A stretch of DNA of 64,000 nucleotides from an uncultured Paracoccaceae bacterium. Lineage in GTDB: Bacteria > Pseudomonadota > Alphaproteobacteria > Rhodobacterales > Rhodobacteraceae. Position numbers and translations under genes: made by a program. Location of the stretch: the NCBI GenBank assembly GCA_947493255.1, contig CANLQK010000003.1, positions 248,001 through 312,000 of the forward strand, read 5' to 3'. Shown here piece after piece: positions 6,206-57,611 of this stretch (positions within the stretch are counted from its first letter, which is position 1; every line of letters starts with the position of its first letter). The notes beneath the pieces were generated by a model. The model worked only from the letters and a program-made list of their open reading frames with translations. It had not been told where the DNA came from and made no database searches.

Positions 6206-7404
6206 GCCGCGCATTTTTGATTGTGATCGACAGTGTCGGTATCGGCGGTGCGCCAGATGCTGATAAATTCTTCAATGGCGACACGCCAGATACTGGTGCC
6301 AATACATTGGGCCACATTGCGATGGCATGCGCGAATGGTGAGGCCGAAGACGGTCGAACCGGGCCGTTGAAGATCCCACATTTGAACGCGATGGGTGCGG
6401 GAGCGGCGATGAAGCTGGCAACGGGTCTTGATTTGGGGTGGCCCGCGCCGACAGGTGCATTTGCGGCCGCTACAGAAACCAGCATGGGGAAAGATACACC
6501 GTCCGGCCACTGGGAACTGACGGGTGTGCCTGTCCCTTGGGACTGGCACATTTTCCCAAATGCACAACCCGCATTTCCGCAGGCGGTATCAGGCCGAATT
6601 TGTGAACTGGCGGGCTGCGACGGAATACTGGCGAATTGTTATGCCTCTGGCACGCAAGTGATCGAAGATTTCGGGGCCGAACATGTGCGAACCGGGCGGC
6701 CAATTTGCTATACATCGGTGGACAGTGTGCTGCAGATTGCAGCGCATGAAGAAACCTTTGGATTAGACCGCCTATTGAAGCTTTGCCAAGATTTGGCGCC
6801 TATGTTGCATGACATGAAAGTCGGTCGCGTTATTGCACGGCCTTTCGTCGGTGAAGATGGCGATTTTTCGCGAACTTTGAACAGGCATGACTATGCGATT
6901 GCGGCGCCAGAAAAGACGCTGTGCGATTGGGTTAGTGATGCTGGGCGACCTGTGCATGCTGTTGGGAAAATTGGTGATATCTTCTCTATGCGCGGGATTG
7001 ATGAGGTGCGTAAGGGGGCAGATGCCACCTTAATGGACCATCTTGCCGACTTGATTGACGAGACACCTGATGGCGGGTTTGTTTTTGCCAACTTTGTAGA
7101 ATTCGACAGCGTTTATGGGCATCGGCGTGATGTGTCGGGTTATGCACGCCATCTGGAATGGTTTGACGCCGCGTTGGGGCAATTGTTGCCTAAGTTAAGG
7201 GCAGGTGATTTGCTGTGCGTGACAGCGGATCATGGTAATGATCCGACATGGATCGGAACGGATCATACCCGCGAACGGGTGCCTGTTTTGATTCACGGTG
7301 TTGGTGCCAAAGACTGTGGCCATGTCGAATTTATTGATGTTGCGCCGACGATTGCTCGGCATTTGGGTGTCCCCTACGGTGGGCGCGGAAGGAACTTTCT
7401 ATGA
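6202..7404 (+). CDS. deoB: Phosphopentomutase
   Basis: A 400-residue alkaline-phosphatase-superfamily enzyme that interconverts (deoxy)ribose-1-phosphate and -5-phosphate. Metal-site motifs are visible: VIDSVGIGGAPDA at the N-terminus, the phosphorylated-threonine loop ETSMGKDTPSGHWEL near residue 93, and TADHGNDPTWIGTDHTRE near 343. It links DeoA-type phosphorolysis to central carbon metabolism. Both ends overlap neighbours by four bases (deoA upstream, add downstream). Confidence 0.97.
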   Translation: MSRAFLIVIDSVGIGGAPDADKFFNGDTPDTGANTLGHIAMACANGEAEDGRTGPLKIPHLNAMGAGAAMKLATGLDLGWPAPTGAFAAATETSMGKDTPSGHWELTGVPVPWDWHIFPNAQPAFPQAVSGRICELAGCDGILANCYASGTQVIEDFGAEHVRTGRPICYTSVDSVLQIAAHEETFGLDRLLKLCQDLAPMLHDMKVGRVIARPFVGEDGDFSRTLNRHDYAIAAPEKTLCDWVSDAGRPVHAVGKIGDIFSMRGIDEVRKGADATLMDHLADLIDETPDGGFVFANFVEFDSVYGHRRDVSGYARHLEWFDAALGQLLPKLRAGDLLCVTADHGNDPTWIGTDHTRERVPVLIHGVGAKDCGHVEFIDVAPTIARHLGVPYGGRGRNFL

Positions 7405-8384
7405 CGTATCAAGTGATGCCAAAGGTGGAATTGCATACCCATCTTGAAGGCTGTGCACCGCCTAGTTTTATTCGTGGTTTGGCGAAGGAAAAGTCAGTTG
7501 ACATTAGTGGTGTGTTTAACGCTGACGGGTCTTATAGCTACCGAGATTTTGATCATTTTTTGACGGTCTATGAAGCTGCGTGCACGACGTTGCAGGGACC
7601 GCAAGATTTCTACCGTTTGGTGAAAGCTGTCTTGGAAGAAAGCGCGAGCCACGGGGTGGTGTACCAAGAGACATTCTTAAGCCCTGACTTTTGTGGGGGC
7701 GGAGATGTTGAAGCTTGGCGTGACTACCTTGCAGCGATGGAAACGGCTGCAGCAGAAGCCGAAGCTGAATTTGACATAACCCTAAAAGGTATTGTGACAG
7801 CTATTCGCCATTTCGGCCCCGACGCAGCCAAGCCGGCAGCGCTGTGTGCAGCGGAAACTTTTGGGGATTTCATAACCGGATTTGGGATGGCTGGCGGCGA
7901 ACTGGCCGGACGCCCGGGTGATTTCGCGTATGCGTTTGATATGGCACGAGAAGCGAGAATGCCGCTGACCTGTCATGCGGGAGAGTGGGGCGGGCCGGAT
8001 ATGGTGGCCGATACGCTGCGTGACCTGAAGGTGCAGCGCATTGGCCACGGAATTAATGCGGTCCGAGATCCTGCGTTGGTCGATCAATTGGCTGAGGCAG
8101 GGACCGTGTTAGAAGTTTGTCCGGGATCAAACGTGTTCTTGAAAGCGTCTGGCGGATGGGATCAACACCCGATCAAGACGCTGCGAGATGCAGGTGTTAA
8201 GGTTACGGTTTCCACGGATGACCCGCCCTTTTTTGGCACAACAATGACCCATGAATTCAACATGTTGTCCCAGACATTCGGCTGGGAAGAGGCCGATTTT
8301 AAAGATCTGAACCAAACAGCATTAAACGCCGCATTTTGCGACGCCGAAACGCACACTAAAATTGCTAAGCGATTGGAAGCCTGA
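7401..8384 (+). CDS. add: Adenosine deaminase
   Basis: A 327-residue TIM-barrel metalloenzyme that deaminates adenosine and deoxyadenosine to inosine and deoxyinosine. The zinc ligands and active site are intact: [10 protein letters not shown] (HxH), [10 protein letters not shown] near 192, RIGHGINA near 213, and [17 protein letters not shown] near 270. It adds a purine branch to an otherwise pyrimidine operon. The start overlaps deoB and the stop overlaps upp (TGATG). Confidence 0.95.
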
Positions 8385-9022
8385 TGACCACGTTGCCCCA
8401 CCTAACCCATGTTACGCACCCGCTTGTTCAACATAAGCTGACGCTGATGCGTGACAAAACGACACCTACGGCAGTGTTTCGTCAGCTGTTGCGCGAAATC
8501 AGCCAGCTTCTGGCATATGAGATCACACGTGAGTTGCCGATGACGACCAAAACCATTGAGACGCCATTGCAGCCGATGGAGGCCCCAACACTACAGGGCC
8601 GCAAGCTTGCTTTAATCTCGATCTTGCGAGCCGGAAATGGTTTGCTGGATGGAATGTTAGAGCTGATCCCGTCGGCGCGCGTCGGGTTCGTTGGTTTGTA
8701 TCGCGATGAAGAAACGCTTCAGCCGGTGCAGTATTACTTCAAAGTGCCGGATGCGATGAACGAGCGAATGGTGATTGCTGTGGATCCAATGTTGGCCACT
8801 GGAAACTCGTCGATTGCAGCGATTGATTTACTTAAGAAATCAGGCGCAAAAGACATCCGTTTTCTTTGCCTGCTTGCGTCACCAGAAGGAATTGCTGCGA
8901 TGAAAGCGGCCCATCCAGATGTGCCGATTGTTACAGCCGCAGTGGATAGTCACCTGAATGACAATGGATATATTGTTCCGGGGCTAGGGGATGCGGGTGA
9001 TCGCATGTTTGGCACAAAATAG
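8384..9022 (+). CDS. upp: Uracil phosphoribosyltransferase
   Basis: A 212-residue type I phosphoribosyltransferase that converts uracil and PRPP to UMP. The PRPP loop reads [19 protein letters not shown] near residues 126-145. The uracil-binding C-terminus [20 protein letters not shown] is also present. It is the last gene of the cdd-deoA-deoB-add-upp operon and re-uses the base released by DeoA. The start codon overlaps the add stop. Confidence 0.97.
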
Positions 9023-11809: not shown

Positions 11810-12367
11810 TTAGCTGAGCGCAGCGACAGGCGAGCGCGCGGTGAATACGCGGATGTAGTCGCCTGGGCTAGAACCGGCCCAATACACCCAAAGCCGCGTA
11901 GGCAAGTTTTCATCGATCCAGACGTCATCGCCGTCTTCGAGCCCACGAAGGTCTTCGCCTATGTAGGTAACGTTGGTGTCGGCCAGAAAGTCCGTGGCGC
12001 CCATGGTGTTTCGCTGCGTCGCGATGCCGAGGATTGGGGCGTCAAAATCTACAAAGCCATACTGAATGCCATCAAGGCTGTCGAAGAACACGTAGTGGCT
12101 AGCCACTTCAGTGCCTTGAGCAATGACGCCCCGTGTGCCGCCAATGTCCACGCGGATGGGCTCGGACAGGATGATGTTTTGGTTTTCATCAAAGGCATAC
12201 AGATTGTAGGTGTCGAAACTATCTGAACCGACGGTGAAATTAAGGGTCGGATCCAAGACCTCAAACCGCCCTTGGCCGCTTTGCCGAATGATTTCTCCGT
12301 TCACAACGGTCGCCTGTGCCGTGATCGGGGCCAGTATGGACAAAGTTAGGGCTAAGGGTTTGATCAT
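11810..12367 (-). CDS. Exported protein, unknown function
   Basis: A 185-residue product with a signal peptide (MIKPLALTLSILAPITAQA, cleavage likely near residue 19). The mature protein is acidic and rich in Asp, Gly, Phe and Tyr (LNFTVGSDSFDTYNLYAFDE, GIQYGFVDFD, DLRGLEDGDDVWID), suggesting a secreted beta-sandwich. I see no PEP-CTERM or VPLPA-type sorting tail and no cysteines. Its ATG overlaps the stop of the upstream acyl-CoA synthetase (ATGA), so the two are translationally coupled although their roles look unrelated. I do not recognise the family. Confidence 0.7.
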   Translation of the reverse strand: MIKPLALTLSILAPITAQATVVNGEIIRQSGQGRFEVLDPTLNFTVGSDSFDTYNLYAFDENQNIILSEPIRVDIGGTRGVIAQGTEVASHYVFFDSLDGIQYGFVDFDAPILGIATQRNTMGATDFLADTNVTYIGEDLRGLEDGDDVWIDENLPTRLWVYWAGSSPGDYIRVFTARSPVAALS

Positions 12368-13983
12368 AAGAGTTGCTTTCGAAGCTCGAATTTCTGGATC
12401 TTGCCAGTGGATGTTTTGGGCAGCTCTCCAAAGACAACTTTCTTAGGGCATTTGAACCCGGCCAATCGTTCACGGGTAAAGGCGATGAGCGTGGCTTCGT
12501 CGGTTGTACGCTCATCTTTCAATTCGACGAAGGCGCAGGGCACTTCGCCCCATTTGTCATCAGGCATGGCAACGACAGCACACAGCATGACGTCGGGGTG
12601 GTGCATCAGTGCGCCCTCGACTTCCACGCTTGAAATGTTTTCGCCGCCCGAAATGATGATGTCCTTTACGCGATCAGCAATTTGCATGGACCCATCGGGG
12701 TGCTGAACCGCGAGGTCTTCAGAATGGAAATAACCACCAGAAAACGCTTTCTGCGTTGCTTGGGGGTTCTTGTAATACCCTTTCATGACAGAATTGCCTT
12801 GAATGACAATTTCGCCTTGGGTCGTCCCGTCCATTGAAACTTGTTCCATTGTCTCTGTCATGACGGTGATGTTTTCCATTTGTGGAAACGCCACGCCTTG
12901 CCGTGCCTTGATAGCGGCTTGTTTTTCAGCAGGTAGGTCGTCCCATTCGGGGTTCCACAGGCATTCGGTCACGTGGCCATAGGTTTCTGTCAAGCCGTAG
13001 ACCTGTTGCACGTTGAACCCAAGTTCACTGATTGCGGCCAGTGTGGCAGGTGCCGGTGGAGCACCGGCGGTAAAGACTTCGACGGTTTGATCAAACGTGC
13101 GACGGTCTTCGTCGGTCGCGTTGACCAGTAGGTTTAAAACAATTGGTGCGCCGCCAAAGTGAGTAACGCCTTCGTCCGCGATGGCGTTGTAGATTGCTGC
13201 GGCGGAAATATCCCGACAACATACAACCGTGCCACCCAGCAATGGCATCATCCATGTGTGGTTCCATCCGTTGCAATGAAACAATGGCACGATGGTAAGG
13301 AATTTAGGGTTAAGGGTCATCCGCCAAGTTACAGGTGTACCCATTGTCATCAAATAGGCACCACGGTGGTGGTAAACGACGCCTTTGGGCCGCCCTGTGG
13401 TGCCCGACGTGTAGTTTAGCGCTAGGCTCTCCCATTCATCCTGCGGCATGATCCATTCGAAATCCGGATCGCCCGCAGCGATAAACGTTTCATAATCGAC
13501 CTGTTCGCCAATTTCAGGCACGCCTGCTTGCGGATCGGGGACTTCGACGACCAACGGAGGAGGTCCTTCCATCCGTTCGATGGCTTGCATCGCAGCAGGT
13601 AAGAACTGGCTATCAACCAGAACCACCTTCGCTTCGCCGTGATCAAAAATGTAAGCGATGGTATCGACATCCAATCGGATGTTGATGGTGTTCAAAACAG
13701 CACCGCATGCCGGAACGCCGAAATGTGCTTCGGCCTGTGCTGGGATATTTGGTAATAGGGTTGCGACAACGTCGCCGGGCTTTACACCCGCCAGCACCAA
13801 AGCGTGCGCCAATTGGCTGACACGGGCATGGTATTGCGCGTAGGTATGGCGGGTCTGACCATACACTAAGGCATCATGGTTGGTGAAGACCTTCGCGGCG
13901 CGCGCCAGATGGCTAAGGGGCGTTAGGGGCACATAATTTGCAGGGCATTTGTCCAACCCCGTCTCGTCACGCATCCATCCCAT
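12364..13983 (-). CDS. AMP-dependent acyl-CoA synthetase (medium-chain / DmdB-like group)
   Basis: A 539-residue ANL-superfamily ligase from the ATG at 13983, which is preceded by GGGAGGG; longer in-frame readings run into the divergent transporter promoter. Core motifs are intact: LNYTSGTTGRPKGVVYHH near residue 175, QVYGLTETYGH near 310, and DRVKDIIISGGENISSVEVE near 425. The catalytic lysine near the C-terminus is in PKTSTGKIQK. It activates a carboxylic acid to its acyl-CoA. This subgroup includes 3-methylmercaptopropionate-CoA ligases (DmdB) of roseobacters, but the substrate is not decided by sequence alone. The gene diverges from the DMT transporter across 130 bases. Confidence 0.9.
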   Translation of the reverse strand: MGWMRDETGLDKCPANYVPLTPLSHLARAAKVFTNHDALVYGQTRHTYAQYHARVSQLAHALVLAGVKPGDVVATLLPNIPAQAEAHFGVPACGAVLNTINIRLDVDTIAYIFDHGEAKVVLVDSQFLPAAMQAIERMEGPPPLVVEVPDPQAGVPEIGEQVDYETFIAAGDPDFEWIMPQDEWESLALNYTSGTTGRPKGVVYHHRGAYLMTMGTPVTWRMTLNPKFLTIVPLFHCNGWNHTWMMPLLGGTVVCCRDISAAAIYNAIADEGVTHFGGAPIVLNLLVNATDEDRRTFDQTVEVFTAGAPPAPATLAAISELGFNVQQVYGLTETYGHVTECLWNPEWDDLPAEKQAAIKARQGVAFPQMENITVMTETMEQVSMDGTTQGEIVIQGNSVMKGYYKNPQATQKAFSGGYFHSEDLAVQHPDGSMQIADRVKDIIISGGENISSVEVEGALMHHPDVMLCAVVAMPDDKWGEVPCAFVELKDERTTDEATLIAFTRERLAGFKCPKKVVFGELPKTSTGKIQKFELRKQLL

Positions 13984-48474: not shown

Positions 48475-49548
48475 ATGATTAACTGGACCAAAAAGACCCT
48501 TGCGGGCGTAGCCGTTGCGACAATGACGGCGTTGCCGGTTGCCGCACAAGAAACAGTGTCGGCTGTTGTGATCGACGGTTATCCGGATCGCGCACTTTGG
48601 GTACGTGAATTCACAGGCTTCTTTATTCCTGAAGTAGACCGTCGTCTGGCAGAGAGCGGCAACTACGTCATGGATTGGCAAGAAAACTATGGCGGTTCCA
48701 TCGTAAAGCCACGTGGCGTTCTGGAAGGTGTTCAGCTTGGCTTAGGTGATATCGGTATTGTGACAACGATTTTCCACAGCTCTAAATTGCCGAGCCAAGG
48801 TATCTCTGGTTCAACGCCGTTCGTTGCGTCTGACGCACGTGCGATTGCACAGGCAGTGGATGAAATCGCCCGTGAATTCCCAGCTATGAACAACGAATTC
48901 GAAGCGCAGAACCAAGTGTATCTGGCGACGGGTGTTGTGCTCGACAGCTACCAAATGTTCTGCTCCGAGGAAGTGACATCAACGTCTGATCTGGACGGGT
49001 TGAAGGTCGCTGGCGCTGGCTTGAATCTGCGTTATCTTGAAGGTCTGAATGACGCGGCAGGCGTACGTGGCGGTCTTACAGATTTTTACAACATGCTTCA
49101 AACGGGGCTGGTTGATTGCGGAATGCTGTGGCCAGAAGCGGCGGCAACATTCAAGATTTCAGAAGTAGCACCTTACATGCTGCGCACTGACTTCGGAGCG
49201 GTAAACTCAAAAACGATAACAGTGAACGCAGATTACTGGGCAAGCCTACCTGACGAAGTGAAGGAAGTGCTTCAGGCAGTTGCGATTGATTATCGTGACC
49301 ACCTTGCAGGTATTGCAATGGACCGCGCAGAAGCATCCGAAGCAGCTTATGTTGAAGCGGGGGGTACGATCGTTGAAGTACCAGCTGCAGATCGTGAGGC
49401 TTGGGCAAATGCGATGCCTAACATTGCTCAGGAATGGGCAACCACGCTGAACGACGCTGGCGAGCCAGGTACAGAGATGCTTGAGGCATACTTGGGCAAG
49501 CTCGAGGCAGCCGGTTACACAGGTGTCCGTGACTGGACCGCTGAATAA
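48475..49548 (+). CDS. dctP: TRAP transporter substrate-binding protein (dioxygenase operon)
   Basis: A 357-residue periplasmic protein with signal peptide MINWTKKTLAGVAVATMTAL and cleavage after VAAQ. TSTSDLDGLKVAGAGLNLRY near 160 and GLTDFYNMLQTGLVDCGMLW near 200 are DctP-type ligand-domain segments. The usual Arg of the carboxylate site (LKVRxxG) is replaced by KVAGAG, which may signal a different ligand class from the malonate system. GGGAGG precedes the ATG. The ligand is predicted to be aromatic from the operon context. Confidence 0.88.
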   Translation: MINWTKKTLAGVAVATMTALPVAAQETVSAVVIDGYPDRALWVREFTGFFIPEVDRRLAESGNYVMDWQENYGGSIVKPRGVLEGVQLGLGDIGIVTTIFHSSKLPSQGISGSTPFVASDARAIAQAVDEIAREFPAMNNEFEAQNQVYLATGVVLDSYQMFCSEEVTSTSDLDGLKVAGAGLNLRYLEGLNDAAGVRGGLTDFYNMLQTGLVDCGMLWPEAAATFKISEVAPYMLRTDFGAVNSKTITVNADYWASLPDEVKEVLQAVAIDYRDHLAGIAMDRAEASEAAYVEAGGTIVEVPAADREAWANAMPNIAQEWATTLNDAGEPGTEMLEAYLGKLEAAGYTGVRDWTAE

Positions 49549-49581
49549 GCCACGTAACGCGACCTGAAAGGGGCTAAATTC

Positions 49582-50133
49582 ATGCTTACAACAGCATTCT
49601 ACGGCCTCTCTCGGGTCGCCAATACAATAGCGATCATTGCCAACGCCTTGGGTACCCTTGTGGTGCTAGCCTTGGTAGTGATCCTTAACCTCGACGTGAT
49701 CGCACGAGGGGTGTTTTCAGAACCCATACCTGGTGTTTATGAGATGGTGCAGTTCTCGGTCGTAATGATCGTGTTTTTGCAGTTAGCAGACGTTGTCCGC
49801 GTCGACCGATTGACACGATCAGATGGTTTTTTGACCGTGGTTGGTGGTAAACGACCAGGTGTTGCGGCCAATATGAGGCGTATTATCAATGCGATCTCAG
49901 CCATTTTCATGGGATTGGTGGCTTACATCACCTTCCCTGAATTCCTGCACATGTGGGATACGAAAGATTATTTCGGCGTACCGGGCTTGTTCACCTTACC
50001 TTGGTGGCCGGTCAAAATGGTCATCACTTTTGGCACGGCCTTGTCCTGTTTAGTGTTTGTGATCAAAGTTATTTCTGCGCAGGACCGCCCTCAGCTCGTC
50101 CGCGCCCCTGAACATGATGAGACGTCCACATGA
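49582..50133 (+). CDS. dctQ: TRAP transporter small permease (dioxygenase operon)
   Basis: A 183-residue protein with four membrane segments (NALGTLVVLALVVILNLDVI; VQFSVVMIVFLQLADVV; INAISAIFMGLVAYITFP; VKMVITFGTALSCLVFVIKV). It matches DctQ subunits. AAAGGGGC is upstream. Its stop overlaps dctM (ATGA). Confidence 0.9.
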   Translation: MLTTAFYGLSRVANTIAIIANALGTLVVLALVVILNLDVIARGVFSEPIPGVYEMVQFSVVMIVFLQLADVVRVDRLTRSDGFLTVVGGKRPGVAANMRRIINAISAIFMGLVAYITFPEFLHMWDTKDYFGVPGLFTLPWWPVKMVITFGTALSCLVFVIKVISAQDRPQLVRAPEHDETST

Positions 50134-51434
50134 CTCCTATTGAGATCGGCCTTATCTCGGTCGTTGCAATCGTCTTTTTGATCTATTCAGGCGTTTATAT
50201 TCCAATTGCCTTAGGCATGGTTTCTTTCGTCTCGATCTGGTTGATGCGCGACAACTTTACCCTCGCGTTAAACTTGTTGAAGGTTGCCGTTGGCGACAGC
50301 GCGATGGAATATAGCTTTGCGACGATACCGCTATTCACCTTTATGGGGCTCGTCGTTTCGAAGGCGGGGTTAGGGAAAGACATCTACGAGGTAATGACCA
50401 TGCGGTTCCGCAAGGTAAAAGGCGGGATCGGGATGGCAACCGTTGGTGCGAACGCTGTTTTCGCTGCTGTGACAGGGTCGTCGATTGCATCTGCGTCAGT
50501 ATTTACCAAGGTGTCCGTTCCTCAGATGATTGCCCAAGACTACAACCCTCGGTTCGCGGTTGGTGTGGTCGCAGGGTCATCGGTTTTGGGTATGATCATT
50601 CCGCCGTCGGCGATGTTGATTATCTACTCTTTCGTGGCTGAACAATCGGTCGGTGACATGTTCTTAGCGGGGGTCATCCCTGGCATTATGTTGGCTATCG
50701 CCTACGTTGTGGCAATTTGGTTCATGGGGCGATTTACGCCGAACTTTGTTGGTGGTCGCATTGTTGAAGAAACCGAATGGATGTCTAAGCGTGAAATCGC
50801 CTCCAAGACCTTACCGACCCTTGGATTGATCGTCATTGTTTTGGGCGGCATCTATACCGGATGGATGACGGCTGTTGAGGCCGGTGCCACTGGTGCCTTG
50901 GTCGCATTGATAATCGCGCTGGTGCGCAGATCAATGTCTTTGAAAACGTTCTGGGAGGCCCTGCTAGAAACAGGCCATATCACAGCAGCAATTTTGTTCC
51001 TGATTACAGCGGCGTCAATCTATAGCCGTATGTTGGGGCTGGCTGGGTTGCCGAACCAGTTGCAAGACATTCTAGCCGGCAATTCTGCTTCGTTCTGGTC
51101 GATCATGTTGTTGTACGTTCTGTTGATGTTGTTCTTGGGTACATTGCTCGACACTGCGTCTATTATTCTGATTGTGGTTCCACTGTTCTTGCCACTTGTC
51201 GAAGCCTTAGATCTTTCATTGATCTGGTTTGGGATCATTACAGTCGTCGGTGCCGAAATTGGGTTGCTTACGCCGCCACTTGGCATCTCCTGTTTTGTGA
51301 TCAAATCAACGATCAACGATGACCGCATATCTTTGAAAGATGTGTTCATGGGGGCGCTTCCGTTTGCGTTTGTCATGCTCATCATTCTTTTCATTCTGAT
51401 CGAGTTCCCAATCCTCAGTCTTGCTCTACTCTAA
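50130..51434 (+). CDS. dctM: TRAP transporter large permease (dioxygenase operon)
   Basis: A 434-residue DctM-type protein with about twelve membrane segments. AAVTGSSIASASVFTKVSVP near 113, GMIIPPSAMLIIYSFVAEQS near 153 and AEIGLLTPPLGISCFVIKST near 375 are the family signatures. It completes the second TRAP system of the window. The dioxygenase gene follows after 12 bases. Confidence 0.93.
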   Translation: MTPIEIGLISVVAIVFLIYSGVYIPIALGMVSFVSIWLMRDNFTLALNLLKVAVGDSAMEYSFATIPLFTFMGLVVSKAGLGKDIYEVMTMRFRKVKGGIGMATVGANAVFAAVTGSSIASASVFTKVSVPQMIAQDYNPRFAVGVVAGSSVLGMIIPPSAMLIIYSFVAEQSVGDMFLAGVIPGIMLAIAYVVAIWFMGRFTPNFVGGRIVEETEWMSKREIASKTLPTLGLIVIVLGGIYTGWMTAVEAGATGALVALIIALVRRSMSLKTFWEALLETGHITAAILFLITAASIYSRMLGLAGLPNQLQDILAGNSASFWSIMLLYVLLMLFLGTLLDTASIILIVVPLFLPLVEALDLSLIWFGIITVVGAEIGLLTPPLGISCFVIKSTINDDRISLKDVFMGALPFAFVMLIILFILIEFPILSLALL

Positions 51435-51446
51435 GGAAACTGCAGC

Positions 51447-52319
51447 ATGCGTAACGTTACCAAAGACAATATCACCGATGTGTTTTGCGGTTATATGGCC
51501 GATGATATGGCCCCGCGAACCCGTGAAATCATGACATCGCTGGTAAAGCACCTGCATGACTTTGCGCGTGATACGAACCTCACCCATGATGAATGGCGCG
51601 CGGGTATCGCGTTTCTTGAGGGGTGCGCTGCGATCGAATCCGAAGATCGGCATGAGTTTGTACTGGCCTCGGATGTTCTTGGGCTGTCGTCCCTGGTTGA
51701 TATGCTCCATTCTAAACCAGAGGCGACATCGTCGTCCGTATTGGGCCCATTTCACGTATCTGGTGCGCCACCTTTGGCATTTGGTGGTGATATGAAACGT
51801 CACTATGGTGGGCCTGTTTTACTGGCCGAAGGTACCGTGAAAGACACGGATGGACAGCCAATAGCCGGTGCAGAGTTAGACATTTGGCAAACAGCGCCAA
51901 ACGGCATGTATGCAAGTCAAGACGACGAACAAGACACGTTCTCGTTCCACGGATTGATGACTGTTGGAAATGACGGAAAATATGCGTTCACAACAGTAAA
52001 ACCCGTAGAATACACCGTTCCATCGGACGGGCCTGTCGGAGATATCTTGCGCGCGTGCGGCCGCCATCCGTGGCGTCCGTCACACCTCCATTACATCATC
52101 ACAGCACCGGGATATAAGTCACTGGTCACCGAAATTTTCCCAGAAGATGACCCCTACCTTGACCAAGACACTGTGTTTGGTGTGCGTGACGACCTTGTCA
52201 TGACCTATGTCGAAAAACCGGTATCTGATTTCCCTGATGGCCTGGAATTGTCAGGGAAGGTTGCAGAGGAAACGTTCCTTCATGTGGAATTCGACGTCGT
52301 TCTTGCGGCATCGGAATGA
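51447..52319 (+). CDS. Intradiol ring-cleavage dioxygenase (hydroxyquinol 1,2-dioxygenase type)
   Basis: A 290-residue non-heme Fe(III) enzyme. The N-terminal helical linker (PRTREIMTSLVKHLHDFARD) and SSVLGPFHVSGAPPL are typical of hydroxyquinol 1,2-dioxygenases. Iron ligands are visible: Tyr in APNGMYASQDDE, Tyr in VEYTVPSDGPVG, and two His in WRPSHLHYIITAPG. It should cleave a hydroxylated catechol to a maleylacetate-type acid. No maleylacetate reductase or monooxygenase gene is nearby. It is the last gene of the operon starting at 46397. Confidence 0.9.
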   Translation: MRNVTKDNITDVFCGYMADDMAPRTREIMTSLVKHLHDFARDTNLTHDEWRAGIAFLEGCAAIESEDRHEFVLASDVLGLSSLVDMLHSKPEATSSSVLGPFHVSGAPPLAFGGDMKRHYGGPVLLAEGTVKDTDGQPIAGAELDIWQTAPNGMYASQDDEQDTFSFHGLMTVGNDGKYAFTTVKPVEYTVPSDGPVGDILRACGRHPWRPSHLHYIITAPGYKSLVTEIFPEDDPYLDQDTVFGVRDDLVMTYVEKPVSDFPDGLELSGKVAEETFLHVEFDVVLAASE

Positions 52320-53322: not shown

Positions 53323-53937
53323 CTAAAACAATCCTGCTTCGCGTGCTATTAAAGCGGCTTGTGTGCGATTTGCGGCACCAACTTTGCGATACAGGGTTTT
53401 CATATGTAGCTTGACGGTCGGTTCTGATATGTCGCGATCTCTTGCGATCTCTTTGTTGGATTTGCCTTCTGTCAAACCTTTCAATACTTGTAGTTCGCGT
53501 TCTGTAAGTTTTTCGGCGAGGGGATTAGCTGCGACATCTTCTTCTGCGGTCATGAAGTCGATTGGCGCATATTGTTCTCCCATGGCCATGAATTTCACAG
53601 CGTTAACAAGTGACTTCGCAGGCAGGGACTTAGGAACAAAACCAGAAGCACCGGCTTCTAGCGCGTCTTCAGCGATTTTTTTTGTGGCTTCACCTGAGAT
53701 TAGAGCAACCTTTTGACCGGTGCCCATAGCAATGGCCGTTCTCAACCCTTCGAGACCATTCATGCCGGGCATGTTATAATCAAGCAAAATAAGATCGTAG
53801 GGTGCATCCGCTTCGATGCGTTCAACAGCCTGCTCAAATGTCCCGACAGCAAATGTCTCCATTCCGCCTTCGTTTTCTAAGAACATAACCAACGTGTCTC
53901 GTAAGAGATCGTGGTCGTCTGCGATTAGAATTCTCAT
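53323..53937 (-). CDS. LuxR/NarL-family response regulator
   Basis: A 204-residue regulator from the ATG at 53937 (GAGGAAGAC upstream). The receiver domain has acidic residues in IADDHDLLRDT and the phospho-acceptor Asp53 in LILLDYNMPGMNG, with a Ser/Thr switch in ALISGEA and Lys in FVPKSL. The C-terminal LuxR HTH (KLTERELQVLKGLTEGKSNK, then EIARDRDISEPTVKLHMKTL) binds DNA. It is divergent from the exported protein and hybrid kinase genes, which likely belong to the same pathway. Two identical 14-bp sites lie in its promoter region. Confidence 0.93.
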   Translation of the reverse strand: MRILIADDHDLLRDTLVMFLENEGGMETFAVGTFEQAVERIEADAPYDLILLDYNMPGMNGLEGLRTAIAMGTGQKVALISGEATKKIAEDALEAGASGFVPKSLPAKSLVNAVKFMAMGEQYAPIDFMTAEEDVAANPLAEKLTERELQVLKGLTEGKSNKEIARDRDISEPTVKLHMKTLYRKVGAANRTQAALIAREAGLF

Positions 53938-54022
53938 GTCGTCTTCCTCGTTCGGTTGAGGTCTTTTACAGTGCAACTATGGCTCTAGCATGGCATAGCC
54001 GATAGTGAAATTTCACCTGCTG

Positions 54023-54036
54023 TATCCTTTCGGATA
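54023..54036 (-). promoter_or_regulatory. Copy 1 of a 14-bp paired site (RR-proximal)
   Basis: TATCCTTTCGGATA, the reverse complement of copy 2 at 54260-54273. TATCC and GGATA arms flank four bases. It lies 86 bases before the response-regulator start, in the 410-base gene-free region 53938-54347. Probable binding site of the LuxR-type regulator (inference). Confidence 0.65.
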
Positions 54037-54259
54037 AGGGTGTTGCCGAAAGTCTCAACATTTACAGCACCTCCGCACAGCTTCCGTTCAAAAGCTACTT
54101 TGCGTGATGGTTGCTTCGCTTGGTTTTGAAAAATCTCACCGACCAAAAGCAGGGAAACCACATTACAGATTTCCACGAAACCACTCTCGTTTGCCTTTGG
54201 CAAGTGAATAGGTCTTATGGTTTCATGAGCCCAATCCTATTCCGATGTATCGGTAACCT

Positions 54260-54273
54260 ATCCGAAAGGATAG
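54260..54273 (+). promoter_or_regulatory. Copy 2 of the 14-bp paired site (kinase-operon side)
   Basis: TATCCGAAAGGATA, extended by one more pair to CTATCCGAAAGGATAG (54259-54274). It lies 74 bases before the exported-protein ATG. A half-site TATCC follows at about 54281. Each copy faces its own gene, as expected for a regulator acting on both divergent promoters. Confidence 0.65.
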
Positions 54274-54347
54274 AACTTTATCCTAATGCCCGCATGCTGA
54301 ATGCTTTGGAAACTGGCATTAAGTGTTTTAGTCGAAGGAATGTTCCC

Positions 54348-54848
54348 ATGCTCATACGTCTCGCCCAAACGATACTCGCATCCATTCTTACCGTTAGTGT
54401 GTCCTTGCCCGTCATCGCGGAAGAAGCAGCAAATCCATTACTGACAGTGTCGGGTGATTTAGGAACTATTGAGAGCGGCACGATAGTGCTGGATTTAGAC
54501 TCGCTTATGGAGCTTCCTGTAACATCGTTTGAAACAAGTACTATTTGGACGGAGGGTGTTCACACTTTTACTGGTGTAGCGCTTTCAGATTTGGCTGCTG
54601 AATTGGGCGTCCAGCGCGGCCTATTCTTCGCTACGGCAATTAATGACTATACCGTCGAAATTCCACACAGCGATGCGGTCGAAGGCGGCCCCATTATTGC
54701 TTACCTTATGGATGATAGCGAGATGTCCATCCGTGATAAGGGCCCGCTTTGGATAGTCTACCCTTACGACAGCAACTCTGAATACCGGTCAGAGGTAATC
54801 TACGCCCGCAGCATTTGGCAACTCGACAGGCTTGAAGTCGTTCAGTAA
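54348..54848 (+). CDS. Exported molybdopterin-fold-like protein lacking cysteine
   Basis: A 166-residue protein from the ATG at 54348 (GAAGGAA upstream) with signal peptide MLIRLAQTILASILTVSVSL and cleavage near AEEA. LDLDSLMELPVTSFETSTIW, then VHTFTGVALSDLAAELGV, resembles the sulfite-oxidase/YedY molybdopterin domain. The mature chain contains no cysteine, so the Mo ligand is missing and catalysis is unlikely. It is 37 bases before the hybrid kinase gene. I infer a periplasmic ligand-binding or sensory partner of that kinase. Confidence 0.75.
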   Translation: MLIRLAQTILASILTVSVSLPVIAEEAANPLLTVSGDLGTIESGTIVLDLDSLMELPVTSFETSTIWTEGVHTFTGVALSDLAAELGVQRGLFFATAINDYTVEIPHSDAVEGGPIIAYLMDDSEMSIRDKGPLWIVYPYDSNSEYRSEVIYARSIWQLDRLEVVQ

Positions 54849-54885
54849 CCCTAAGGTAGCCGTAATGCGTTGAAGGGAAGCGTTC

Positions 54886-57390
54886 GTGACAATAAATCCA
54901 CCCAAACGCGCAAAACGCGGCAGAATATTTGTTTTTTTGGCTAGCTGCGTTGCGGTTCTTGCAATTGCCCTTTTGACTTTCAACGTATCCCGCGAAATCC
55001 GTTTGCTTGGCTCTGCACGGTCCGACAACGTTCATTGGTCTTTGGTGCAAACGCAGGTCGAGTTTCTTGAATTCCAACGTCAGGTCGACATCCCTTCAGT
55101 TGATGTTGTTCAATTGCGCCAAGAATTTGATGTCTTCTTCAGTCGCGTAACGACATTGCAGCAAGCAAGTGTGTTTGCTGACCTGCGTGCCGATCCTTCT
55201 TCTGCGCGGTATCTAATCGGGCTGGTAACCTTTCTGAACGATGCCGTTGAGATCATTGATGCACCTGATGAGGAGCTACTCGCCCAACTCCCTCAATTGT
55301 CGGAGCTGACGTCAGAAGCAGCCCCGGTTGTGCGTTCCCTTGGGAACTCGGGACTCGATATCTTTGCAAGGTCTTCAGATGAACAACGAAAAAAAGTTGC
55401 GCGCACGATGACGCAGTTGGCGATAGCCATTGCTGCGCTGATAGGTATTTTGACGTTGGCGGTATTGTTCTTGAATAGGCTCAACGGACAGATTTATCGA
55501 CGTGAGCGCAAGATCAAACAGACTAGCACGCGTATGACCACCGTAATGAGTACGTCACTGGATGGGGTAATCGTGTGCGATTCCAACGGGGATATTCTAG
55601 AGTTCAGTCCCGCCGCAGAAGCTATTTTTGACCATAAAGAAAGCGACGTTCTTGGCAAAGACATTGGTTCCGTAATTGTACCCGACCATTTGCGTGAAGC
55701 GCATGATGCTGGCATGGAACGGATGCGGATGAATGGGGAAAAGCGCGTCGTTGGTGCAGGCCGTGTGAAGCTTGAGGCGAAACGTCGTGATGGCAGCATC
55801 TTTCCTGTTGAATTGGCAATCCAAACGGCAAGCACCGACCAGGGCGACATCTTTATTGCGTTTCTGCGAGACATTTCGAACCGTGTCGCGGCAGAAGCAG
55901 AACTCGTTGACGCTCGTGACAAGGCGTTGGCAGGTGAGAAGCTGAAAACTGATTTCCTATCTACAATGAGTCACGAAATTCGCACACCATTAAATGGCCT
56001 TCTTGGAAATATGAACCTCCTCCGCGATACAAAGCTCGACGCAAATCAGGATCGCTACGTAGGATATATGGAGACATCTGGTCGTCTATTGATGAACCAC
56101 ATTTCCGATGTTTTGGATATTACCCGATATGACGCGGGAAAGCTTAATACCCGAACTGAAGCCGTCAATTTGTCGGCACTGTTTCAAGATATTGTCGACA
56201 ACCAAAGTAGTACGGCGTCACAGAACGAAACATCGTTGTCTTGGAAATGGGTTGGTGCAGAGTTGACGTGGGTCATGTCGGACCATGACCGTCTCCAGCA
56301 TGTCATGATGAACTTGATTGGTAACGCGGTAAAGTTTACCAAACGTGGCAAAGTCGTCGTCAGCGTTGAGAACACAGGCACGCTCGACGATGCCATCCTA
56401 ATGATTAAGATCGCAGATACCGGTCCTGGTATGGCGGACGACCTTGCCGAGCGGATTTTTGACGACTTCGTAACGGGTAACACTGCCTATGATCGAGACG
56501 TTGGCGGTACTGGCCTGGGCCTTAGCATTGCAAAGCGGTTTGTAACGGCCCTAGGAGGGGAAATTGGGGTTCAAAGCGTTGAAGGTGAGGGCAGTACATT
56601 TTGGGTTAAACTTCCAGTGGCTGCGGCAATAGCGCCCGAAGAAGGTAATGGAAAAGAGATGAAATATACGGCGTCACGCGCGTTGTCAGTCTTGCTTGTT
56701 GAAGACAACGAAATCAACCGCATTGTAGCACGAGAAATGCTGCAAGCCGAGGGACATATTGTGGTTGAGGCCAATGATGGAAGTGAAGGTGTTCAAGCTG
56801 CAAGCGAACAGCAATTTGATTTGATCCTGATGGATATCAGTATGCCCGTAATGGACGGCAGAACCGCGACGCGTTTGATCCGTAGCGAAGGTGGTCCGTC
56901 TGCAAGTACAACAATTGCAGCTTTAACGGCGAATGCAATGGCGGACGAACAGCGTGAATTTTTAGCTGATGGAATGGATCTGATTTTGGCGAAACCACTG
57001 TCGCGCGATGCTCTTCGTGACTTGTTGAGGTCATGTGACGATGGTGTCGAGCTGGTCAGCAGTGATACCTTAGTAGATCATGCCCATAGCGCTGAAACCC
57101 GCGAAGCTCTGGGTGAAGAAACATTTACAAAATTGCGGTCGCGTTTCGCGACGGAAGTAGATGACTTGCAATCATGGATCGCTTCGGACGCGACAAGAGA
57201 CTTCCTAGAGATTGCGGCGCGATCGCACAAAGTTGCAGGTAGTGCCGCTGTTTTCGGTGCAACCCAGCTTCGGGAATCTCTGAAACAGTTGGAAGCCTCG
57301 TCTAAGTCCGGTGATATCGATGCCATAAATGAGTGTATCAGAGATTTCGAAGACATTTGGATTCGAACAAAGGTTCAGTTCGCAAGCTAG
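54886..57390 (+). CDS. Hybrid sensor histidine kinase with PAS, receiver and Hpt domains
   Basis: An 834-residue inner-membrane protein starting at GTG (GAAGGGAAG upstream). TM1 is at about 13-33 and TM2 at about 172-192, enclosing a periplasmic sensor of about 140 residues. Then come a PAS domain (about 210-325), HisKA with His near 363 (FLSTMSHEIRTPLNGLLGN), HATPase (NLIGNAVKFTKRG; DTGPGMAD; GGTGLGLSIAKRF), a receiver with Asp near 650 (LILMDISMPVMDG) and an Hpt domain with His near 781 (AARSHKVAGSAAVFGA). This is a full phosphorelay that probably ends on the divergent LuxR regulator. No other response regulator is nearby. Confidence 0.94.
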   Translation: MTINPPKRAKRGRIFVFLASCVAVLAIALLTFNVSREIRLLGSARSDNVHWSLVQTQVEFLEFQRQVDIPSVDVVQLRQEFDVFFSRVTTLQQASVFADLRADPSSARYLIGLVTFLNDAVEIIDAPDEELLAQLPQLSELTSEAAPVVRSLGNSGLDIFARSSDEQRKKVARTMTQLAIAIAALIGILTLAVLFLNRLNGQIYRRERKIKQTSTRMTTVMSTSLDGVIVCDSNGDILEFSPAAEAIFDHKESDVLGKDIGSVIVPDHLREAHDAGMERMRMNGEKRVVGAGRVKLEAKRRDGSIFPVELAIQTASTDQGDIFIAFLRDISNRVAAEAELVDARDKALAGEKLKTDFLSTMSHEIRTPLNGLLGNMNLLRDTKLDANQDRYVGYMETSGRLLMNHISDVLDITRYDAGKLNTRTEAVNLSALFQDIVDNQSSTASQNETSLSWKWVGAELTWVMSDHDRLQHVMMNLIGNAVKFTKRGKVVVSVENTGTLDDAILMIKIADTGPGMADDLAERIFDDFVTGNTAYDRDVGGTGLGLSIAKRFVTALGGEIGVQSVEGEGSTFWVKLPVAAAIAPEEGNGKEMKYTASRALSVLLVEDNEINRIVAREMLQAEGHIVVEANDGSEGVQAASEQQFDLILMDISMPVMDGRTATRLIRSEGGPSASTTIAALTANAMADEQREFLADGMDLILAKPLSRDALRDLLRSCDDGVELVSSDTLVDHAHSAETREALGEETFTKLRSRFATEVDDLQSWIASDATRDFLEIAARSHKVAGSAAVFGATQLRESLKQLEASSKSGDIDAINECIRDFEDIWIRTKVQFAS

Positions 57391-57536: not shown

Positions 57537-57611
57537 GCGGGTGTTGTGTAATGGTTAAGACCCCAGTTTTCCAAACTGGAGATGGGGGTTCGATTCCCCC
57601 CACCCGCTCCA
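57537..57611 (+). tRNA. tRNA-Gly (anticodon TCC)
   Basis: Acceptor arms GCGGGTG (57537-57543) and CACCCGC (57601-57607) pair fully. The anticodon stem is CCAGT/ACTGG with loop TTTCCAA, giving anticodon TCC. The T-arm GGGGGTTCGATTCCCCC is intact and CCA is encoded. It reads GGA/GGG codons. It lies between the kinase and the ABC transporter. Confidence 0.95.

Follow-up and report, generated by a model that had tools for sequence, protein, structure and literature searches.

Organization of the locus

The window analyzed here is a 64,000-nucleotide stretch from an uncultured Paracoccaceae bacterium (assembly GCA_947493255.1, contig CANLQK010000003.1, positions 248,001 to 312,000). The subject of this work is a signaling triad at positions 53323-57390, in which a regulator gene on the minus strand diverges from a plus-strand pair encoding an exported protein of the PruR type and a hybrid sensor kinase. 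The regulator (53323-53937, minus strand, 204 amino acids) belongs to the NarL/LuxR family, with a receiver domain (Pfam Response_reg, 1.4e-21) and a GerE helix-turn-helix (HTH) domain (1.6e-20) at residues 143-198 (53344-53511, minus strand). The exported protein (54348-54848, plus strand, 166 amino acids, cysteine-free) was recognized from PDB sequence matches and an AlphaFold2 (AF2) model as a PruR-type periplasmic protein predicted to bind pterin. Its start was placed at the ATG at 54348 because of the signal-like N-terminus, and the longer open reading frame (ORF) from a TTG at 54111 was judged mechanical. The kinase gene follows on the same strand after a gap of 37 bp (54886-57390, 834 amino acids). 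Its product, of the DTB type discussed below, contains in Pfam a PAS domain (residues 217-330, 55534-55875, 8.6e-13), a HisKA domain (residues 354-418, 55945-56139, 8.1e-17), an HATPase_c domain (residues 466-579, 56281-56622, 3.5e-28), a receiver domain (REC; Response_reg, residues 602-714, 56689-57027, 1.4e-22), and an Hpt domain (residues 752-818, 57139-57339, 2.6e-6). In the periplasmic sensor region ahead of these domains lies a WX7E motif, W51...E59 (55036-55062, plus strand), conserved in related loci.

The first-pass annotation of this DNA had described a hybrid kinase with Hpt and a divergent LuxR-type regulator, and the Pfam domains bear out both descriptions. It had also noted that the genes lie together, which agrees with a comparison set of 65 related loci fetched by PruR similarity. 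Members of the same kinase cluster lie near the PruR homologues in 50 of them and members of the same regulator cluster in 48, a grouping above chance. It is important to consider that the set includes close relatives (e.g., L015/L017, L032/L033, and L039/L046) and that the counts ignore phylogeny.

The exported protein and a candidate pterin supply

Proteins such as the one in the window are usually annotated as molybdopterin-dependent oxidoreductases, and this one, scoring 24.5 bits, barely reaches the cut-off of 24 set for the Pfam family Oxidored_molyb. By phmmer, its significant PDB sequence matches were four, all PruR according to the entry titles (7rkb, 3.9e-26; 7kos/7kou, 9.4e-26; 7kp2, 7.9e-22; 7kom, 5.2e-20), and those that came after were antibodies with E values of at least 1. 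The AF2 model, built from an alignment of 44 sequences (the window protein and those of 43 of the 65 loci), had a mean predicted local distance difference test (pLDDT) score of 91.1. When this model was searched with Foldseek, PruR chains occupied ranks 1 to 7 and sulfite oxidases came next. A second structure aligner gave Z scores of 23.3 to 21.3 for PruR entries, the top one being 7kou of Agrobacterium tumefaciens PruR, and of about 9 to 15.7 for enzymes of the sulfite oxidase (SUOX) and MsrP types, which share the fold. The sulfite-oxidase fold proposed in the first-pass annotation, together with the comparison to SUOX and YedY that it had advised, was thereby confirmed, with PruR as the nearest structures.

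Identity to A. tumefaciens PruR was 36-37% in the structural alignment. The pterin-binding residues named for that protein in PMC13259868, Asn102, Tyr104, and Trp160, have N99, Y101, and W157 as their counterparts in the window protein (alignment with 7kos), and these pocket residues are invariant in 44 of 44 aligned homologues. The absence of cysteine noticed at first reading also stands, as the window protein has none and the mature part is free of it in 43 of the 44 homologues, the sole Cys (L018) aligning with window E85. The homologues thus lack the molybdenum-ligating Cys whose presence had been named as an argument against a sensory role. At the position of the enzymes' Cys, a Thr appears when the PruR profile is aligned by hhalign with the genome's own MsrP-like protein, a weak alignment (probability 5), and the PruR residue there is Trp according to PMC13259868. 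This MsrP-like protein is a separate one, carries the Cys, and is encoded beside an MsrQ-like membrane protein (named by eye). PruR proteins have about 170 amino acids and an export signal at the N-terminus; the window protein has 166, and its signal was judged by eye only. Taken together, these results assign the exported protein to the PruR-type periplasmic pterin-binding proteins, with family and fold obtained by computation and the ligand predicted, and its usual annotation as an oxidoreductase is replaced by that of a sensor subunit.

A candidate for the supply of pterin was also found in the genome. Pteridine reductases carry the signatures TGX3RXG and YX3K, as named in PMC13259868, and the best candidate (C7:12389; locus L123, 1441-2274) carries TGGAARLG and YTIAK. 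Its best PDB match was FolM (5tgd, 7.5e-55). In NCBIfam it lies above the cut-off of the generic short-chain dehydrogenase/reductase model NF006597 and below that of the pteridine reductase models. The signature Arg was seen in this protein only among the 8 of 25 matches examined, and its gene is unlinked to the pruR locus. The genome thus encodes a candidate PruA-like (PruA/FolM-like) reductase.

The hybrid kinase

PruR-DTB systems consist of PruR and a DcpA-TorS-BaeS-type sensor kinase and occur in Proteobacteria, with Ruegeria pomeroyi as an example (PMC13259868, section 8 and Fig. 5 legend). The same article describes them as a PruR gene followed by that of a kinase whose periplasmic domain is DcpA-like and which carries a WX7E motif. 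According to its sections 7-8, pterin binding, periplasmic docking, and kinase-type partners have been published for the PruR class, and the interaction of PruR with the periplasmic domain has been published for GGDEF-type (DcpA-like) regulators.

Our comparisons place the window unit in this class. The gene downstream of PruR carries WX7E in 62 of the 65 loci (exceptions L034, L053, and L064), and W51 is invariant among 31 aligned kinase sensor regions, the window's included. A HisKA motif is found in that gene in 52 loci and a GGDEF motif in 9; the co-occurrence with the kinase that the first-pass annotation had advised checking holds for most loci, and in nine a GGDEF protein stands in its place. 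The 31 kinase sensor regions are homologous to those of GGDEF-type regulators (hhalign probability 98.5, E 4e-15), the latter being eight sequences from loci L055-L065, with DcpA itself outside the comparison. The kinase sensor region was modeled as a helical bundle (pLDDT, 86.7). A structure search with this model returned zero matches with E <0.001, the best being helical bundles (e.g., NarQ and amino-acid receptor domains) with E values of at least 0.04. A GGDEF-EAL output was also looked for in the window kinase, and Pfam found kinase domains only. By gene order, WX7E motif, and domain and profile tests, all of them made on sequence, the window unit is a PruR-DTB member, in which docking and ligand binding are predicted. 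Consequently, the earlier suggestion of a periplasmic sensor subunit for the kinase is supported as to the role of the partner gene, and it is not new, as the PruR-DTB class had already been published.

Two loci of the set show unusual arrangements. The kinase gene of L043 consists of two adjacent ORFs (6515-9010), perhaps by a frameshift or sequencing error, and L034 (5162-6462) has PruR and the divergent regulator without a kinase after PruR. In the window, a tRNA-Gly (tcc) gene lies directly 3' of the kinase gene (57537-57611).

The divergent regulator

The window regulator fits the NarL/LuxR family in having a receiver with a phospho-acceptor Asp and a GerE HTH, and all 49 aligned regulators have an Asp at position 53. 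Of the 65 loci, 48 have an orthologous NarL-type regulator within 6 kb, in 45 cases on the opposite strand. In the nearest locus, its identity to the window protein is 92%, against 68% for PruR. Since the 65 loci had been chosen by PruR, a separate draw of 120 genomes of the family, our own included, was analyzed with presence thresholds of E <=1e-45 for the regulator and E <=1e-10 for PruR. The regulator was present in 51 genomes, PruR in 64, both in 48, and neither in 53 (Fisher p 1e-15). Furthermore, 45 of the 78 PruR places in these genomes had the regulator within 6 kb, 37 of these within 0.8 kb and 42 on the opposite strand.

Regulator places without PruR were examined in seven of ten stretches, L133, L135, and L136 having been left out by a length filter. 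In L132, the regulator and a WX7E kinase lie in a polysaccharide cluster from whose usual place pruR is missing, and in L138 and L139 no sensor was recognized beside the regulator. The L132 segment between the galU-like gene and the kinase (12161-12465) may hold a remnant of the start of pruR, judged by eye, and another PruR copy lies elsewhere in that genome.

Other genes accompany the regulator in some relatives. In L003, L004, L005, L007, L008, and L011, REC-SpoIIE, STAS, and DUF3131 genes follow it, and in five of the six an HATPase_c_2 gene does too. We take these REC-SpoIIE/STAS/DUF3131 genes to resemble the RbaY/RbaV/RbaW partner-switching genes of Rhodobacter capsulatus. In the window itself, TRAP-type transporter genes and then an intradiol-dioxygenase-like gene (all named by eye) occupy 48475-52319, ending about 1 kb from the regulator.

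A conserved palindrome in the intergenic region

The intergenic region contains two exact copies of the palindrome TATCC-N4-GGATA. Candidate operator 1, TATCCTTTCGGATA, is at 54023-54036, 85 bp from the start codon of the regulator, and candidate operator 2, TATCCGAAAGGATA, is at 54259-54272, 75 bp from that of pruR. Three exact cores were counted in the whole 3.36-Mb genome and none in a reversed control. With up to one mismatch, 40 of the 48 regulator-bearing loci have the motif in the 200 bp preceding PruR, compared with 3.1% of 8623 random 200-bp segments of the same loci. In the other eight the best match has two mismatches; of these, seven carry the exact symmetric variants TACCC-N4-GGGTA or TATAC-N4-GTATA, and L054 is one mismatch away from a variant. 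Among the 17 loci without a visible regulator, the motif precedes PruR in two, L036 (whose contig extends just 200 bp upstream of PruR) and L049, and in none of the 13 loci L055-L067.

The conserved block reads ACC-TATCC-N4-GGATA-GGT, a 20-bp consensus with 16 fixed positions that we call the extended motif, and the columns upstream of it are at background level. A further TATCC half-site at +20 to +24 forms a conserved column block in the 40 aligned upstream regions and is found in the window at 54279-54283 (plus strand), 20 bp downstream of the start of operator 2. This operator departs from the extended motif at 2 of the 16 positions, all in the flanks. In addition, a TGGCA block of weak conservation follows some 50 bp downstream of the palindrome, a spacing that would suit an activator.

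The sites also vary with the recognition helix of the regulator. In 35 loci, residue 173 is Pro, Ala, or Gln, and in 34 of these the fourth half-site base is C on both sides. In 13 loci the residue is Val, and in 11 of them this base is changed on at least one side. The covariation of residue 173 with half-site C or A (34:1 versus 2:11) has a p of 4e-8, a value uncorrected for descent. The putative tie between regulator and site rests better on this helix covariation than on position alone.

Polysaccharide clusters and other candidate targets

A polysaccharide cluster surrounds the system in 22 loci, and its genes were named from one representative per gene family. Pfam identified a WecG/sugar-transferase fusion, a nucleotidyl transferase (galU-like by eye), a Polysacc_synt flippase, a GT2 protein, and a Poly_export protein. 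The wzc-like protein is chain-length-determinant-like (NCBIfam, below cut-off), and the wzy-like one, without a family match, was named by eye as a protein with multiple membrane spans. Sites with up to one mismatch were counted in an interval reaching from 300 bp ahead of the ORF start to 60 bp beyond it. In these clusters, the motif precedes PruR in 20 of 22, the wzc-like gene in 20 of 22 (15 of the 20 sites at 100-108 bp), the wza-like gene in 16 of 18, the wzx-like gene in 15 of 20, and the wecG-like gene in 8 of 22. Conversely, it was found before none of 15 galU-like, 21 kinase, 22 wzy-like, and 19 GT2 genes. Loktanella salsilacus (L017; genome G014) carries the cluster on a separate contig, and there, too, the site is found 93 bp before wzc (L102).

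The genome-wide scan with the 16-base motif covered the genomes of 47 of the 65 loci. With up to two mismatches, it returned 86 sites in 36 regulator-bearing genomes, compared with 10 in the reversed control, and 11 in 11 genomes from regulator-less loci, compared with 6. Ten further places with sites at this threshold were inspected, of which five are plausibly placed for a promoter (L102, L103, L109, L110, and L111) and five are not (L104 to L108). The plausible ones include the polysaccharide cluster of L102, a LysR-type gene in L110, and a place before an unnamed ORF in L103. In Actibacterium pelagium (L111:9349), a palindrome whose core is exact and whose flanks have two mismatches precedes a short gene by 61 bp; the gene is Flp/Tad pilin-like by eye, and Pfam gave only DUF4244 for it, below cut-off.

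In the window's own genome (G000), a one-mismatch scan for the regulon gave a result at noise level (57 sites, compared with 53 in the reversed control). The third exact core (C4:320158-320171; L071:10159-10172), with four mismatches to the extended motif, is about 220 bp before a LysR-type gene, which adjoins DoxX-like and rpsI-like genes (named by eye). An orthologous LysR-type gene in one Sulfitobacter metagenome-assembled genome (MAG; L110) also has a site. At 1e-20, relatives of the gene were found in no more than 4 of the 35 regulator-bearing genomes searched, with identities of 29-32% for three of them, and at 1e-50 in none of 60 relatives, the own genome excepted. Additionally, a one-mismatch core at C1:20967 (L120, about 10967), CCTGTCC-N4-GGATAG, is flanked by a zinc-type dehydrogenase gene and an HTH_3 regulator gene, the latter downstream, and an Octadecabacter MAG (L109:7706) has a similar palindrome at the equivalent position, in an intergenic region of moderate conservation. 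Judged by such site matches, the likely target in the own genome is the system itself, and the LysR-type and HTH_3-type regulator genes are leads only.

The wzc-like protein was also searched for away from PruR and was found in 1 of 34 other genomes, all from loci without a cluster beside PruR. The finding of one unlinked copy indicates that the same query is able to detect such a protein elsewhere.

Proposed mechanism

The family and fold of the exported protein, the architecture of the unit, the co-occurrence of its genes, the conserved palindrome, the helix covariation, and the PruA-like gene were computed here. We consider it likely that the locus is a PruR-DTB signaling system with a dedicated NarL-family output regulator that controls its own unit through the palindrome. 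In this mechanism, PruR would be exported and would hold a reduced pterin in its truncated SUOX-type pocket, with no metal and no catalysis. It would dock on the membrane kinase at its helical periplasmic domain, and docking would alter the activity of the kinase. Phosphate would then pass from HisKA to REC, to Hpt, and to Asp53 of the divergent regulator, and the phosphorylated regulator dimer would bind the palindrome before pruR and probably also the one before its own gene, resulting in autoregulation. In relatives with the same site before polysaccharide-export operons, the regulator would control export as well.

For the Rhodobacteraceae as a whole, we favor, with somewhat less assurance, a route from PruR through a WX7E hybrid kinase to a co-inherited NarL-family regulator and from there to an operator on the system's own genes and, where present, on the surface-polysaccharide cluster. 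If this is true, periplasmic pterin sensing reaches matrix polysaccharide by two architectures, through cyclic di-GMP (c-di-GMP) in Agrobacterium and through direct transcription here, and the operator allows the regulon to be read off genome sequences. The co-inherited regulator and the short operator make the output of PruR-DTB systems testable, and they would provide a link from extracellular pterins to surface polysaccharide that bypasses c-di-GMP.

Alternative explanations

Several observations weigh against this interpretation. Three exact cores are about what chance would give for 10 fixed bases in 3.36 Mb, and only their placement speaks for function. Operator 1, exact in its core, misses 5 of the 16 extended positions, all in the flanks, and a site precedes the regulator in only 8 of the 22 polysaccharide loci of relatives. 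The helix covariation has exceptions, since the Val173 regulators of L038 and L050 keep C half-sites and the Pro173 regulator of L027 has a mixed site. Loci and regulators share descent, and the Fisher values consequently overstate independence. Nor does the window have a promoter of the sigma-70 type where an activator would need it, and the regulator may thus activate or repress. Regarding the polysaccharide output, a search of the window's own genome for the wzc-like protein returned no match, and in the 20 kb surrounding its two Poly_export genes no core has fewer than two mismatches; polysaccharide is thus only a possible output here. Furthermore, we infer the identity of the ligand, the docking and the direction of its effect, phosphotransfer, regulator-palindrome binding, and activation.

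Different readings of the single components were also evaluated. The exported protein could be a small molybdopterin enzyme, a truncated SUOX/MsrP type lying by chance beside a two-component system, as would fit its score just above the Oxidored_molyb cut-off and the SUOX-type enzymes as next structural neighbors (best Z, 15.7). However, PruR structures are closer (Z, 23.3), Cys is missing from the window protein and from the mature part of nearly all homologues, the genome has its separate Cys-bearing MsrP-like protein beside the MsrQ-like one (by eye), and the PruR homologues are paired with sensory regulators. With no Cys, closer PruR structures, and a sensory context, we dismissed this identity as extremely improbable. 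It is less far-fetched, though still unlikely, that the PruR-DTB assignment is right and the ligand is another small heterocycle rather than a tetrahydropterin. Section 9 of PMC13259868 leaves the in vivo ligand unsettled even in A. tumefaciens, but the invariance of Y101, W157, and N99 in the 44 homologues and the PruA/FolM-like reductase encoded in the genome argue for a pterin. As for the palindrome, it might act as an RNA hairpin in the pruR leader instead of a DNA operator, given that many pruR leaders have a loop of GAAA or a similar GNRA-like sequence. We regard this as very unlikely, because loops of TTTC, TTAA, GTCC, and GTTC also occur, single-arm changes break the pairing (TATAC...GGATA), sites lie between divergent genes (e.g., the wza-like and wzx-like ones), and the window leader folds no better than its shuffles (z, -0.43).

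The remaining possibility concerns the regulator, which could be a separate regulator of surface polysaccharide that shares the neighborhood without being the partner of the kinase. In the 120-genome sample, 28 of the 73 regulator places lack PruR within 7 kb, and a PruR match is absent from 3 of the 51 regulator-bearing genomes. Another sensor, or a kinase without WX7E, adjoins the regulator in L130, L131, L134, and L137, and polysaccharide clusters exist with an unrelated sensor (L137) or with a WX7E kinase and no pruR (L132). On the other hand, PruR is present in the other 48 of the 51 genomes, and in 40 of 48 loci the putative operator stands before the pruR-kinase unit itself. Consequently, a separate regulator seems improbable to us, marginally more so than a different ligand, and the NarL-family protein is retained as the output partner of the PruR-DTB unit.

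Comparison with known systems

With sulfite oxidase and MsrP (YedY), the window PruR has the fold in common, and it is shorter and lacks both the metal-ligating Cys and a catalytic context. EvgS-EvgA and BvgS-BvgA are unorthodox hybrid kinase systems in which a HisKA-REC-Hpt relay leads to a NarL-type regulator. In contrast to them, the window system would receive its input through a separate periplasmic protein predicted to bind pterin.

The A. tumefaciens PruR-DcpA system (PDB 7kos and 7kou) shares with the window a PruR homologue with conserved pocket residues and a homologous periplasmic region of the partner, the latter judged from the GGDEF-type regulators of L055-L065 and not from DcpA itself. 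The two differ in the cytoplasmic part of the partner, which is GGDEF-EAL in DcpA and a kinase in the window; the output of the window system would thus be a phosphorelay rather than c-di-GMP.

The PruR-DTB class is already known, and the window unit shares with it two successive genes, the first for an exported SUOX-fold protein lacking Cys and the second for a kinase that combines a WX7E periplasmic domain with PAS, HisKA, HATPase, and REC. The relevant sections of PMC13259868 leave the output of these systems unstated, and the terms "response regulator" and "exopolysaccharide" are absent from its main text. In the open-licence PubMed Central literature, nothing was found on a partner regulator, an operator, or a polysaccharide link; the primary PNAS 2024 paper, outside that scope, may describe the regulator. 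Compared with PruR-DTB as published in those sections, the window system adds a C-terminal Hpt domain, a divergent NarL-family regulator, and a conserved palindrome.

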